Assembly (NCBI GenBank): GCA_022376465.1
Contig: JACDTU010000016.1
Coordinates: 124,001-188,000 of the forward strand
Direction of reading: 5' to 3'
From: Cubamyces lactineus
Taxonomy: Eukaryota > Basidiomycota > Agaricomycetes > Polyporales > Polyporaceae
DNA: 64,000 nt
Part shown: positions 40,006-46,192 of the stretch, piece after piece
Numbering within the stretch: the first letter of the stretch is position 1
Layout: each line of letters opens with the position of its first letter
Notes under the pieces: generated by a model
The model's database searches: none
What the model was told of the DNA's origin: nothing
What the model saw: the letters and a program-made list of their open reading frames with translations, nothing else
Program-made: the position numbers and the translations under genes

Positions 40006-40014
40006 GCCATTTCC
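40006..40014. repeat. Target-site duplication, left copy (GCCATTTCC)
   Basis: Nine bases, identical to 46184-46192, directly flanking the inverted repeats. Confidence 0.9.
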
Positions 40015-40293
40015 CAGGCTCCTACCCACCGTCACTGTCGAGTTGAGGGGCGAAATCCTAGAGGGAGGGTCGGGACTAGATACGAATAGGCGGGCTCGAT
40101 GCTGAGTAAATAACAAGCGCTTGTACAGTATATCGAGGTCACGTGTTCTATACTGTTAAGATGGGTTCCCCTCAACTCTTCAGGACGGCTGGCACCAAAC
40201 ATTGATAAACATCGGGGGCCCGGAGATTTGACGCTCAAATTCTCCTCCTTTTGGAAGGTGCCTGCCGTGGGCGCTTTGAATTATAGGAAAATG
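40015..40293 (+). repeat. Left terminal inverted repeat
   Basis: Pairs with 45904-46183. The outer 45 or so bases (40015-40060) are almost identical. The central 80 or so bases diverge with only islands such as TTGTACAGTAT. The inner block (about 40158-40293, from AAGATGGGTTCCCC to TTATAGGAAAATG) is again nearly identical. Confidence 0.9.
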
Positions 40294-40396
40294 TAGGTGT
40301 GTCGTTCGCTTACTTGTATCCCTATTAGGGAAGGTCTTGTAGTAGGCTGTATCGTACAGTAGGAATCTATGACTCCCTCGTATCCCGATTGTCATC

Positions 40397-43183
40397 ATGA
40401 CCAGCCGCTACGATGTCCTGCGTAACGTTGTACAATATCTGGAGCCATTCAATATGGGTTTGTCAGACCTGGTGATTCTTGTCCTTGTGCAGGGCGGCGC
40501 CGATGCTTTTTGGGCTGGAACTATCTCAGAACTCACTCATAATACCACTAGTCTCCTTGCCGCCCTGTATCACCATGAGGCTACTGGCAAGATCACTCGC
40601 GCGTGGATGCATCAGACGGTTCAGACGAATCTCTTGACCTCGATTCGCAAGGTCGCCACTATGGATGATGGATGGCACTTCAACGCCGCGCACGCTCATG
40701 CTGAGCAAATCAATAACTTCCGGATTGAAGACATGACCAAGCACGTCTGTAAGGAGGCGCCTGAGCTATGGTCCTTCGTCAATGGCTTATTATCTGCTGG
40801 TACTTATAAACACCAAGAAGCCGCCTCGAGCCCGGAGCCGGCACCGCGGCACTTAGGACTCTATGCAGATCAGCATTCAGCGGATGGGGATGACGATGAG
40901 GGATACTGGGATTCGGAGGATGTCGACGCGTTGGAGAACATGGAGCGCGAGACGGATCAGGCGGGGGCGCAGGGGCGGGGAGATAAGAAGGCGGAGGCAC
41001 ATTTGAAGCAGTTGCGTCTGCAGCAGGCACTCATACGTATTGTGCGTCGAATACCCCCTCAGCAGCAGTGCATACAACTCAGATTCTCTTAGAAAGCCAT
41101 TGTCGTAATAAGCGTGCTCCTGCACAACGAGGACCAGAATTGCAACCTCCTGCAAGCCACTATGGGCATATTCCTGCATTCATGTAGCGCGCCTGAGAAA
41201 CTGATCAAGACCCTTGGACGCATGGGCCTTTCGATCTCCCTCACCTCGATCCATCGTGCGATCAACTCGCTCTCCGAGAATAGCCATATTGAGATGGAGA
41301 CCCTTGGTCGTACATTGAGATCTGGAATCGGGTACGACAACTTCGACTTCAAGCTTGATATCGCTATCCCTACGATCGACAGCTTGAAGGATACTCTCTT
41401 CCATATGACCTCCGGCACACTGCTCCGCCTCGACCACGGTGTGACCCTCGACGACCTCCGCTGCTCACGGCTTCTATGGGATAGGTCTGAACTTAATCCC
41501 CTCGCTACCGACCCTCGGCCGTTTGATCCACGAAAGACATTGTCCCATCTCTATGCAATCCACCCCGAGCCAGACCGTCCGGGCACGCTAACCCGTCGGG
41601 GTCGCTTTCGTGCTTGGTTTCTCCAACACATGCTGTTCAAACATGGCCCCCCGGCTCTCAAGAAGCTGAAGGCAAATTTGCGTGATCCGGAGCCTATCGA
41701 GGGTATCCCCGTTGTCAAACTACATCAAGTACCCCTGCGCGCGATGGACATCAATCAATCTAAGGTGTCCGGAAATCTCGAGGCGCTCGGAGATATGTTA
41801 TCTCAGGCAGGACTAGGGGACCCGACCTCTCAGACAGGGACGCACAGTGGCAGACCGGTAACAGACATGTCAGAATATGTTGTCCTTGTCCACGGTGACC
41901 TAGGGACTTACGAGCGCGTCCTCACCGCCCAGCGCCGCCGCCAACAGGAGCTCACGCCACACAACCGCCTGCAATACATTGTCTTTGTCCCTGGTCTATT
42001 CCACCTCAAGATGGCAGCTGCTGACGCCATCTGGCGTGCTCTGGTGACTACGGCTGAGGCGCGCGTCGATCCCACATCCTTTGCGAAGCTGATGGCTAAA
42101 CTCCGCCCAAACGAAAGCTCGAGGCTCATCAATAATGCAAAGTACCGTCAACAACACGAGCTCATCGAGCATGTCAGCGCTCTCCTCATCATCGATGCGT
42201 GGCGGGCGGAGATAAAGCGAAGCACAGATGGCCGAGTTCAGAGTCTCGAGAAGTGGGCCGAATCAAAGCCTTCCATGCACGAAATCGGCGAGATTGCAGA
42301 ACGGATCGTACTCAACTATATTGAAGGGGACGGGCTCGACTTGTTTGACATGCAGTTCAATGAAGTGCGCGACGTTGCCCGCGAGAACACCATGCGCACG
42401 CTCAACTATCTGATGCTATATGAAGAACTCGCCTATGCGATGAACGCCGGTGACATCGGGCGGGTTGAAACACTCCTTGCGCCCTGGATTCAGCTCTTTC
42501 GGGCTACTGGCAAGCATAAGTACGGCAACCTTATGCTACGCTTCGCACATGCATTGTACTTTATTTATCCGGAAACGCTTCGGTGAGCTACTCGGTACGG
42601 TGCATGTAATTTACAGAGGACTTACGAACAGTCTCGCCAGACGCGCGATTCGTTACAACATGCTTGTAAACCCTCTGGGAAAAGCGCATCACTTCCGAGC
42701 CGTGGACTGGATCGTTGAGCTATTAAACCTGTACATCAAGGTCAGTATACGTGCTATGCAAGATCATAACAATTCCTTCACGCTGTATGTTAGACGATCT
42801 ACGGCGGTGGTGGGTCAAACTATACGAAAGCACGCATCCTACTTGAATCAGCACTAGTCCTCGTATTCCGCAACTGTCATGCCAACTTCGAGCGCAATTT
42901 CTTGCTTCCTGGACTTACGTATGCACACGCCATCAAGGATATGCGGAACACCATACAATCAATTATAGAGGACTACATTAAAGGCCAGAGTCCGAACGAG
43001 ACGAAGGGTGGGCGCTCCTCCGCATATCCCATACCTGATCTCCTCAACCGCGGAGCGGCAGCGGTCGATGCAGAAGGAGGCGCTAGGGGTCTGATGCCGG
43101 GGGAGGTTGAGCTGGATGGGTCGCTGCTAGAGGGCGAAGAGCCACCGACAGCGGAGGATCTTAGCGTTGATGGTATGATATGA
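40397..43183 (+). CDS. DUF6589-family protein, candidate transposase of the element
   Basis: This matches the DUF6589 family, abundant in basidiomycetes and of unstated function. Exon 1 runs from ATG 40397 (MTSRYDVLRNVVQYL) to about 41042. A GT-AG intron leads to KAIVVISVLLHNEDQ and a long exon with the conserved blocks: LRAMDINQSKVSGNLEAL, YVVLVHGDLGTYERVLTAQ, LQYIVFVPGLFHLKMAAADA. After the donor near 42585 come GLTNSLARRAIRYNMLVNPL, HHFRAVDWIVELLNLYIK, then TIYGGGGSNYTKARILLES and FLLPGLTYAHAIKDMRNTIQ, stop at 43183. The acidic residues in AMDI and HGDL are spaced as in an RNase H-like fold, which with the repeats and target duplication suggests a DDE-type transposase. That role is inference. 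Three introns; frame intact. Confidence 0.85.
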
Positions 43184-43184
43184 C

Positions 43185-45835
43185 CTATGAATCATACGTA
43201 CCTCGTTCAGCAACTATGTCAGATAGTGTTCGCACGCGACGGCGAGAATTATACGATGTGTCAGTAAACGAATTAAAAAAATCAGCGTAGGTATTAGGCT
43301 GCTGTGGAGCCTGTGGGGCAGGCGCGGGTGTAGGCGCACGGGCGACGGCCGTGGGCGTGGGGTCTAAGCGTGCAGGGGCAGGCGCAGAGATAGCTGCAGC
43401 CGGGGTGTTCTCCTTGTCTGTTCCAGTCCGTGGCTGGAACTTCGGACAATTGCGGTTTGTTCCTGCATGACACGAGTGTGAGTAGACCACACGTCATCAA
43501 AGGAACAAGAACGTACGTATGTGCCCAACCTCGCCGCATGCGCCGCATTTGCGCGGAGCTGTGGGGACGTTCGAACGCGAGCTACCTGCAGCTTGCAAGA
43601 CTTCCGGCGCAGGAGGGGCAGGATAGTGGCTGTAGTATCGCCATGTTGTGAGCTGCACATGGAGTAGAGCGTGTTCACGTACCTTTCGATTAGCTTGAGG
43701 ATGTCGTCGCCGTATTCTGCAGCGTGCGACCACTTGGTTTCCCGGGCCAAAGCCTCCGCTGTGTAGATCTTCCCCGCCCGCGCGCAGTCGGCGATGCGGG
43801 AAAGGATTTCATCCCCCATGATCATACCGGTCCCGTTGTTGTGTAGTTGGGCTTTACCGTGGATCGCGAGGGTCTTTGAGCGGCGAAAGGCGTGCAGGGC
43901 GCGACGAAAGTTACGGTCCACTGAATCCATGGCGTATTTCGTATCGACTTGTGATGCGCGAGAAGTGGTTGACTTGTTGGGGGCAGGCGTCGACGTGAGG
44001 ATGGCAAAGCCAGGGTAGGTAGGAGTGCAGAGGAAGCAGCAGATGGGAGAGGGAGTGAGCCGGCATCGCCTGCATCCATCGCCTTCGGGGTTACACGAAT
44101 GATTATCAGATTCTAGGCGTTTAAGTTCAGCGACATCCAGACTAGGAGATAACCACATAATACCTAGGGCGTCATTGCCATAATAGGCTGTAATCGGCGC
44201 TCGATAGCACTTGAAGGACCGTGTGGCTGCGTTCACCAAATGGTCCATCTCGCTACTCAGCTCACTGCCGCCATTCTTGCAAGTGCGCGCTGCTTTGTCA
44301 GAGCCCGCGGTGGATAAGACAACCGGCTGGGACTGCTCGTATGAGACGCGCAAACGCTCGAAAACTGTGAGCTCATCCACGACCATAGGGTGCTCCTCCG
44401 AGCTCCCCGCGGCTGCGTGAACTTGAGCAGTAGCCACGCCTGCTGACCGCAATTCTCCCTGCCCATTCGCGCCAAGACCATTCGTGCCAGGGCCATTCAA
44501 ACGCCTACGTTTGTTGACCTCTTTGTCAACAATCGCCTTGTCCGCGGCTCGTTTCCGCTTCTCTGTGCGCTTCACGGCCTCAGCTCTCTCCTCGTCGAAG
44601 TACTTCGATTCGGCGAGTAGAATCGCGACCGCACTTGTTCCGGGGCCGCGCGCGGCTCGGCCGAAGCGCTGCCATAGACTGTTCATGTCGCAAGACACCC
44701 GCCACTGAACCACAAGCTCAATATCCGGAATGTCCACACCCTGAAAGTAAGATCGGAATGTCAATCTGCATTGGACGGGCTACACGAGCGGTAAGCCTTA
44801 CTCACCATTCCAAACGAATCTGTACAGTAAAGTCCATATAATTGATGCTTCTGGAAGCCGGTAGTAGTGTACTCTCGAAACTCCGGGGTGTTATCGGAAT
44901 TGAACCAGACAATGTTCTTCCGGTAAGCAGGCGGCACTCTCTGATGTAATGCCTTTGCCGCCTTAACAGATTCCTCTATATTGTCGAAAAAGACGAGGAA
45001 ACGTGGGATTCTGATGCCCGGCTGCCAGTCGTCGGGCACCAGGAAATCCAAGTCCTTGAAACTGGAGAGTGAGTGAACAATCTTCTGCACGGCGATGTAG
45101 ACGTTCGGGCGATCATTTGATCGCTGTAACGTGCAGATAGAATCGCGCCGGAGCTGAAGTTTCTTCGTGACGTCAACAAGCACATGGCGGGGGAGGGTGG
45201 CGGAAGGGAGGAGATAGGTAACGTGCTTGGGGAGAACTGCTCGGAGCCGGCCAGCATCTCCGTAATCCGGTCGGAAAGAGCTCCAGGACGAAATACAGTG
45301 AGCCTCATCCCAAATGACGGCAATGATCTTGGATACGAAGGCTGCGTTTCTCCACAGCCGGCTGAAAGCCCCGTTGGGCTTGAAAGCGAGCTCAGGGCTC
45401 ACAATGACCACACGGAAGGCGGAAGAAGCGATGGCCTGAAGAGAACATTAGTAGCTGATATAATCTTATATCTGCAGGTAGTATGGTAAGCACCTGATAG
45501 TTCTCCGGCGTTGCTGTCTCTGATGATATAGCCACTGCACTAATACCAAACCTTTCGAGCTGAGTTCTATTCTGCCCACCCAAAATGTTGAGCGGCGTGA
45601 TTACGATCTGGACACCATCGGGACGGAACAGTAGAGGCATCCAGAAGCACAAGGTCTTGCCAGACCCCGTTCCTGAGATGCATATGATGTCCTCACAAGC
45701 CCGCAATTGGGCCAGAGCGCACTCGCATTGCCAAAGACACGGCCTCCTTCCGAAGCAGGCGAGGGTCCGCTGCCTAATCTCGTCTACAGAAGGAAGGTCG
45801 GGCCCTGGGGACGCCTCAGGCTCAGGCGTCGCCAT
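43185..45835 (-). CDS. RecQ-like DNA helicase with C-terminal TAF1-type zinc knuckle, carried by the element
   Basis: A superfamily 2 helicase. From ATG 45835 (MATPEPEASPGPDLPSVDEI) it has motif I GTGSGKT, motif Ia ITPLNIL, motif II with the RecQ loop (VIWDEAHCISSWSSFRPDY), motif III PSATLP, then VDIPDIELVVQWRVSCD and motif VI LWQRFGRAARG. The RecQ-type aromatic loop is known for this family; motif VI is a variant of GRAGR. Beyond the helicase core are a basic segment (KRTEKRKRAADKAIVDKEVN), a Cys-rich cluster (CNPEGDGCRRC, CCFLC), and, across an intron, CGACGEVGHIRTNRNCP, a C-x2-C-x4-H-x6-C knuckle like that of TAF1. The Pro/Ala-rich tail ends at 43185. At least four introns, no broken frame. 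It could unwind element ends or process the excision gap; unproven. Confidence 0.85.
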
Positions 45836-45903
45836 GCGATGATGATCTTGACGTTCTCAGCGCTCTTAAGAAGGCGCACTGAATATCTTGTTCTATGCGA
45901 GCG

Positions 45904-46183
45904 CATTTTCCTATAATTCAAAGCGCCCACGGCAGGCACCTTCCAAAAGGAGGAGAATTTGAGCGTCAAATCTCCGGGCCCCCGATGTTTATCAATGTTT
46001 GGTGCCAGCCGTCTTGAAGAGTTGAGGGGAACCCATCTTGACTAGTATGACACACGTGACCTCGCAAATACTGTACAGCGCTTATTCGCATTGAACCTGA
46101 ACTCTCGCCTCTAACATTCAACCTGTACTCCCCCCTTCAGGATTTCGCCCCTCAACTCGACAGTGACGGTGGGTAGGAGCCTG
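45904..46183 (-). repeat. Right terminal inverted repeat
   Basis: Inverted partner of 40015-40293. The helicase start codon is 69 bases inside its inner edge. Confidence 0.9.
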
Positions 46184-46192
46184 GCCATTTCC
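46184..46192. repeat. Target-site duplication, right copy (GCCATTTCC)
   Basis: Identical to 40006-40014. Confidence 0.9.

Follow-up and report, generated by a model that had tools for sequence, protein, structure and literature searches.

The stretch of DNA analysed here (the window) comprises 64,000 nucleotides of contig JACDTU010000016.1 of the wood-rot fungus Cubamyces lactineus. Positions 40015-46183 of the window are occupied by a transposon of 6,169 bp, which carries a gene for a DUF6589 protein and a gene for a RecQ-like helicase. The element starts with CAGGCTCC and finishes with GGAGCCTG (longer end sequences, CAGGCTCCTACC and GGTAGGAGCCTG, respectively). Its ends thus read CAGG...CCTG, and they are flanked by a perfect 9-bp target-site duplication (TSD).

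40006..40014, no strand: left TSD GCCATTTCC, same as 46184-46192
40015..40293, + strand: left terminal inverted repeat (TIR), aligned to the right TIR
45904..46183, - strand: right TIR, aligned to the left TIR
46184..46192, no strand: right TSD GCCATTTCC, same as 40006-40014

A preliminary description of this locus had reported inverted repeats of about 280 bp, CAGG...CCTG ends and a perfect 9-bp duplication, and all of these are found exactly at the coordinates it gave. The two apparently intact spliced genes that it had read in the interior are both open after splicing. They are convergent, with one base between their stop codons.

40397..43183, + strand: DUF6589 gene, 874 amino acids (aa), four exons (40397-41041, 41093-42582, 42641-42740, 42794-43183), PF20231 with E 8.4e-95
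43185..45835, - strand: RecQ-like helicase gene, 806 aa, five exons (45835-45494, 45435-44806, 44740-43683, 43629-43517, 43462-43185), DEAD with E 1.6e-18 and Helicase_C with E 5.2e-10

The 659 C-terminal residues of the window DUF6589 protein align without gaps to the full NCBI protein C8Q73DRAFT_654642 (P0001), with an identity of 99%. This identity and the PF20231 E-value were computed with a gene model in which exon 3 started at 42617; compared with P0001 that start is 8 codons too long, and it was replaced by 42641. The exon model of the helicase gene is based on alignment to the annotated relatives P0121 and P0123, not on transcripts.

Ends of the element and its copies in the genome

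Alignment of the left and right TIRs (about 280 nt) shows that they are unevenly conserved. Their complementarity is 95% in the outer 55 nt and 99% in the inner 139 nt, and the middle stretch of about 85 nt is diverged and gapped. In what follows, C8 denotes the contig of the window and the other C labels denote contigs of the same genome. Both TIRs of a copy at C11:36018 share 88% identity with the left TIR but only 76% with the right TIR, whose closest match is a single end at C39 (86% over 159 nt). As the two TIRs resemble different copies, recombination between two subfamilies may have given rise to the window element.

The 17-nt end pattern occurs at 28 sites in the genome (12 exact, 12 with one mismatch and 4 with two mismatches), and a reversed control pattern at 12 sites with up to two mismatches. 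Eleven end pairs define elements between 1.1 and 14.5 kb in length. A perfect 9-bp TSD flanks nine of them, the C3 element has one matching at 8 of 9 positions, and the C17 element has none. No exact repeat of any other length from 4 to 12 bp flanks any of the eleven, and none of 110 cross-pairs of mismatched left and right ends has a 9-bp duplication. The exact 9-bp repeats of the other copies hence exclude chance as the origin of the window's ends and duplication, and the search for further copies with the same ends, which the preliminary description had called for, came out in its favor. The comparison of occupied and empty sites was also run, with the joined flanks of the window element, but in the whole genome these matched the window's own two flanks only and no empty allele.

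The duplications bear on the possibility that the locus is a KolobokH element, i.e. a Kolobok transposon with a RecQ helicase. KolobokH is, in the passages of PMC9587614 that deal with it, reported only from fungi, and the presence of a RecQ helicase within a fungal DNA transposon is indeed what we see here. However, the Kolobok TSD is given there as the 4-bp TTAA, whereas the duplications in this genome are 9 bp long and varied in sequence, with no TTAA 4-bp duplication among the eleven paired elements. Furthermore, the helicase and the probable transposase of the window element are encoded by two distinct genes, one on each strand. We consider KolobokH extremely unlikely.

Both genes are present in two of the eleven paired elements, those at C8 (the window) and C15. 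In the C15 copy, which is 14.5 kb long, the matched part of each gene is interrupted by a stop that could reflect a lesion or an intron; a 488-bp inverted-repeat stretch (L033:2136-2623) abuts the outer left end of this copy. The C17 element (L058/L059, C17:283031-284505) has well-kept ends besides lacking the duplication, and is perhaps a product of recombination between copies. At C42:336900-345900 (L070), a TIR copy with a 9-bp duplication is swollen to 8.8 kb by open reading frames that we read as a Ty3-type retrotransposon. The C5 element measures 11.4 kb. Our gene searches of the genome list neither a DUF6589 nor a RecQ match at C5 or C42. Two single TIR ends, L055 (C4:1392790) and L060 (C20:213800), have an identical 15-bp outer flank and hence are probably part of a duplicated region rather than separate insertion events. 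The simplest explanation for the short copies with these ends is that they are non-autonomous and were mobilised by a transposase such as the one proposed below.

In most TIRs, a motif of 11-14 nt (GAGTTGAGGGG in the window) is repeated in inverted orientation about 100-130 bp further inward. The motif-pair search placed the four copies in the window element as follows.

40040..40050, + strand: outer subterminal motif GAGTTGAGGGG, left
40168..40178, - strand: inner inverted copy of the subterminal motif, left
46019..46029, + strand: inner inverted copy of the subterminal motif, right
46148..46158, - strand: outer subterminal motif, right

The search covered 25 of the 28 ends, the omitted ones being three two-mismatch ends, and the pair is present in 19 of the 25. 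No clear pair was found in five of the 25, and the right end of C11b has a different pair, within the null range. Relative to the best of 200 shuffles, the right end of C25 scored below and that of C17 equal. Within four subfamilies the motif variants match between both sites: GAGTTGAGGGG; GAGGTGAGGGGG; GAGGTGAGAGGGC/GAGGTGAAGGGC; and GAGTTGAGGAGGGG/GAGTTGAGGTGGGG. This grouping is our own, and ends that belong to the same subfamily do not count as independent. The paired motifs are putative transposase-binding sites.

The DUF6589 loci other than C8 and C15 are divergent. Their ends were sought as direct repeats flanking inverted ends at seven loci, in the window and in one shuffled sequence, with looser limits in a second scan. 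Exact 9-bp repeats (TGGCACGAT, GGAGCCCAT and GAGCAGACG; ends TAGNCTCG) bound stretches of 7,532, 5,926 and 8,140 bp at C12, C1 and C39, respectively, each holding both genes. Related ends with 9-bp duplications are thus present at three divergent loci, the evidence being weaker for one of these. In the first scan 13 of 15 end bases matched at C12 and 11 of 15 at C1; the C39 pair (11 of 15) was found with the looser limits, alongside four weaker pairs that include another at 9 bp. The shuffled sequence gave no end pair. The scan of the window recovered the true pair together with two overlapping pairs that match at 11 of 15 bases, at 10 and 8 bp. We take these two as chance, and as they are equally good, the end score of C1 proves little by itself. 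Additional support for C1 comes from the two genes inside it, eight identical terminal bases (TAGTCTCG) and an inner inverted repeat of 43 nt. The inner inverted repeat of C12 is 58 nt long. The same scans gave no convincing ends at C14, C11, one C43 copy and C2, and loci other than C39 yielded single 7-bp pairs under the looser limits. Single sites within L035 and L037 resemble an end pattern drawn from C12 and C1.

Together with C8 and C15, these three loci bring to five the number of DUF6589 loci, out of ten, at which both genes lie between such ends. A RecQ match lies within 13 kb of nine of the ten, always on the opposite strand, and none is listed at C2. The genes are convergent in five cases (C8, C15, C1 and two at C43) and divergent in four (C12, C14, C39 and C11). 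The expectation that DUF6589-RecQ adjacency would recur with TIRs and 9-bp duplications is therefore borne out. At C43:683179-708254, two DUF6589 copies with identical scores and opposite orientation, each with a RecQ match close by on the same contig, point to a single element that underwent inverted duplication.

The DUF6589 protein and its RecQ partner

The predicted structure of a DUF6589 relative, P0003, matches those of Hermes, the P element transposase, Tn5 and RAG1, the best matches being to the hAT (Hermes) and P element transposases. A second model, of exon 2 of the window gene (pLDDT 89.4), gave weaker structural matches. The matches of the P0003 model argue that DUF6589 is probably a DDE transposase, which supports the RNase H-like transposase fold proposed in the preliminary description. 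Three acidic residues are candidates for the catalytic site.

41336..41338, + strand: D297 codon (DNFD), candidate for the first catalytic acid; D in 103/105 aligned proteins; first core strand, 77-87 of the exon-2 model
41897..41899, + strand: D484 codon (HGDL), candidate for the second catalytic acid; D in 106/107; immediately follows strand 264-268 of the exon-2 model
42717..42719, + strand: E738 codon (VDWIVE), candidate for the third catalytic acid; preceded by a mostly helical insertion; E in 50/52 relatives

In the P0003 model, the region of E738 corresponds to a helix (733-748) close to the C-terminal limit of the alignments with Hermes and the P element. Of the two acids singled out from the sequence beforehand, that of HGDL is near-invariant, but the aspartate of AMDI is conserved in just 89 of 103 sequences, with E in its place in 8 and N in 4, and is hence a poorer candidate than D297. 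P0003 itself, from Trametes cinnabarina, has N at the first candidate position (residue 293), and it may therefore be a dead copy. In P0255 from Coprinellus aureogranulatus, a single gene model combines DNA-ligase domains with DUF6589, which could result from an erroneous gene prediction or from fusion of a host gene with a transposon.

A search of PDB sequences with the DUF6589 profile gave no match up to E 1, and a PHROGs search nothing useful. Despite the structural likeness, the window DUF6589 protein has no Pfam family in common with the hAT and P element transposases, and no hAT Pfam domain was found in it up to E 0.1. hAT and P elements make 8-bp duplications, as opposed to the 9 bp of the window element, and are not known to carry a helicase. 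Pfam describes DUF6589 as of 'unknown function', and its mushroom members are hypothetical proteins in NCBI records. Among the matches listed by our alignment-based homolog search, the named relatives belong to Basidiomycota only, a result that does not extend to animals.

Alternatively, DUF6589 could be an accessory protein, with the true transposase acting from elsewhere and the element being its non-autonomous carrier. Two points weigh on this side: the case for catalysis by DUF6589 consists of predicted structure and sequence, and the two-gene elements were found via these very genes, so that gene presence there carries no weight. On the other hand, the predicted fold is transposase-like, the candidate acids are conserved and the helicase is the only other gene in the window element. 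An accessory role thus appears very unlikely to us.

For the helicase, recQ_fam is the best NCBIfam model, with E 2.2e-15 for exon 2 of the window gene and 1.6e-38 for the relative P0123. As both scores are below the curated cut-off of 219.8 bits, the window helicase is, by these profiles, a divergent relative within the RecQ family. The best PDB match of P0123 is WRN, followed by RECQ5, RECQ1, RecQ and BLM. A zinc knuckle is probable at the C-terminus of the window protein (zf-CCHC_6, E 5.3e-4, 20.3 bits against a cut-off of 22).

The pairing extends to other species. DUF6589 proteins were taken from the best 120 of 167 and the best 120 of 150 matches, and RecQ proteins from the best 120 of 251. 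Among these, 127 of 172 distinct DUF6589 entries had an NCBI name and contig, and 39 of the 127 (35 species labels) lie on the same contig as a RecQ entry; in the reverse direction, 41 of the 120 RecQ entries share a contig with a DUF6589 entry. A shared contig was inferred from exact equality of size, and the organism names agree in all 39 cases. Consecutive gene numbers are found in BN946_scf184970.g97/g98, EIP86_004312/004313 and NMY22_g13344/g13345, with a further pair in TRAPUB_13660/13661, and numbers two apart in EW146_g2695/g2697 and NM688_g2636/g2638.

The identity matrices of the two proteins are correlated with a Mantel r of 0.86 over 37 pairs, a value reached in none of 2000 permutations (two of the 39 DUF6589 entries were dropped, their contigs carrying two RecQ entries each). 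Host phylogeny adds to this correlation. In three of four cases of two pairs within one species, the pairs are about as distant as the overall mean (DUF6589 identity 0.48-0.54 against 0.46, RecQ 0.44-0.49 against 0.43), and in the fourth they are closer (0.72 and 0.64). By these identities, DUF6589 and RecQ co-diversify.

Such co-diversification speaks against a one-off capture, as would be expected of a MULE-type element that had picked up a RecQ gene. MULEs have 9-bp TSDs and long TIRs, which the 9-bp duplications and TIRs of about 280 bp resemble. However, the Pfam scans found no MULE transposase domain, either in the window protein up to E 0.1 or in any of 61 relatives at 0.01, and a MULE origin can be given hardly any weight.

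Class assignment and proposed mechanism

The combination of features described above agrees with that of AcademH, reportedly the subject of Kojima 2020 (Mob DNA 11:15). According to passages of PMC10045372, AcademH makes TSDs of 9 or 10 bp and AcademX of 3 or 4, the lengths being tied to helicase and nuclease, and PMC10799480 describes AcademH as low-copy in Basidiomycota, Ascomycota and Mucoromycota. The window element shares the 9-bp TSD, a RecQ-family helicase and TIRs. Its DUF6589 protein, with a transposase-like predicted fold and conserved candidate acids, may be the DDD/E transposase. No difference from AcademH is seen at the level of these published descriptions. Passages of PMC6416283 list 1,568 of 1,938 fungal Academ copies with recognisable protein domains, e.g. 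PF00270 and recQ_fam, within the element, and state that because of such domains Academs are often annotated as host genes; DUF6589, TSD and gene arrangement are not named in those passages. A published Academ profile is applied in PMC8290104. RecQ genes are described near some telomeres of Ganoderma leucocontextum (PMC10817607).

The locus is very probably an autonomous DNA transposon of AcademH type. All testable features agree with AcademH, an assignment based on anatomy, as Academ transposases are known to us by description. Several points weigh against it and would favor a DDE transposon outside Academ, in which DUF6589 elements form a superfamily of their own and acquired the RecQ gene independently. 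The link of DUF6589 to Academ is one of anatomy and not of sequence; DUF6589 is the sole Pfam family matched by more than one of the 61 relatives, with no Academ-named family among the Pfam matches of these and the window protein; and the name DUF6589 is absent from the literature searched, a limited search that did not cover other sources. Conversely, AcademH and fungal Academ, as far as the printed passages describe them, are matched in the length of the TSD, the type of helicase, the host kingdom and the low copy number, and we consider a separate superfamily improbable. On the AcademH assignment, the DUF6589-RecQ pairing is of a kind already known and the window element is a well-preserved further example. 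The preliminary description had suspected that the pairing might be catalogued, and AcademH and fungal Academ with recQ_fam are indeed in print. The 'unusual transposition system' it spoke of may hold mechanistically, but it is not new. As the name DUF6589 did not appear in the literature searched, its link to a transposase may be unrecorded there.

In the mechanism that we propose, DUF6589, with an RNase H core and a mostly helical insertion before the last acid, would bind the TIRs, cut at the CAGG ends and join these to staggered target cuts 9 bp apart, and gap repair would yield the 9-bp duplication. The RecQ helicase would be an accessory that opens DNA, or assists its resection, at the excised ends, the target gaps or the donor break. 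A more specific helicase-assisted DDE pathway, in which the transposase binds the two inverted motif copies of each TIR and the element's own RecQ opens the paired end, is doubtful. As the two motif sites change together from one subfamily to the next, the ends, the transposase and the helicase would on this view evolve jointly. If this pathway were true, DUF6589 might be a superfamily of its own.

In summary, the AcademH-type element suggests an identity for the DUF6589 proteins of 'unknown function' in mushrooms, and the proposed link of DUF6589 to a transposase with a RecQ partner provides a rule for re-annotating both. Furthermore, an intact-looking copy with defined ends makes the role of a transposon RecQ helicase directly testable.
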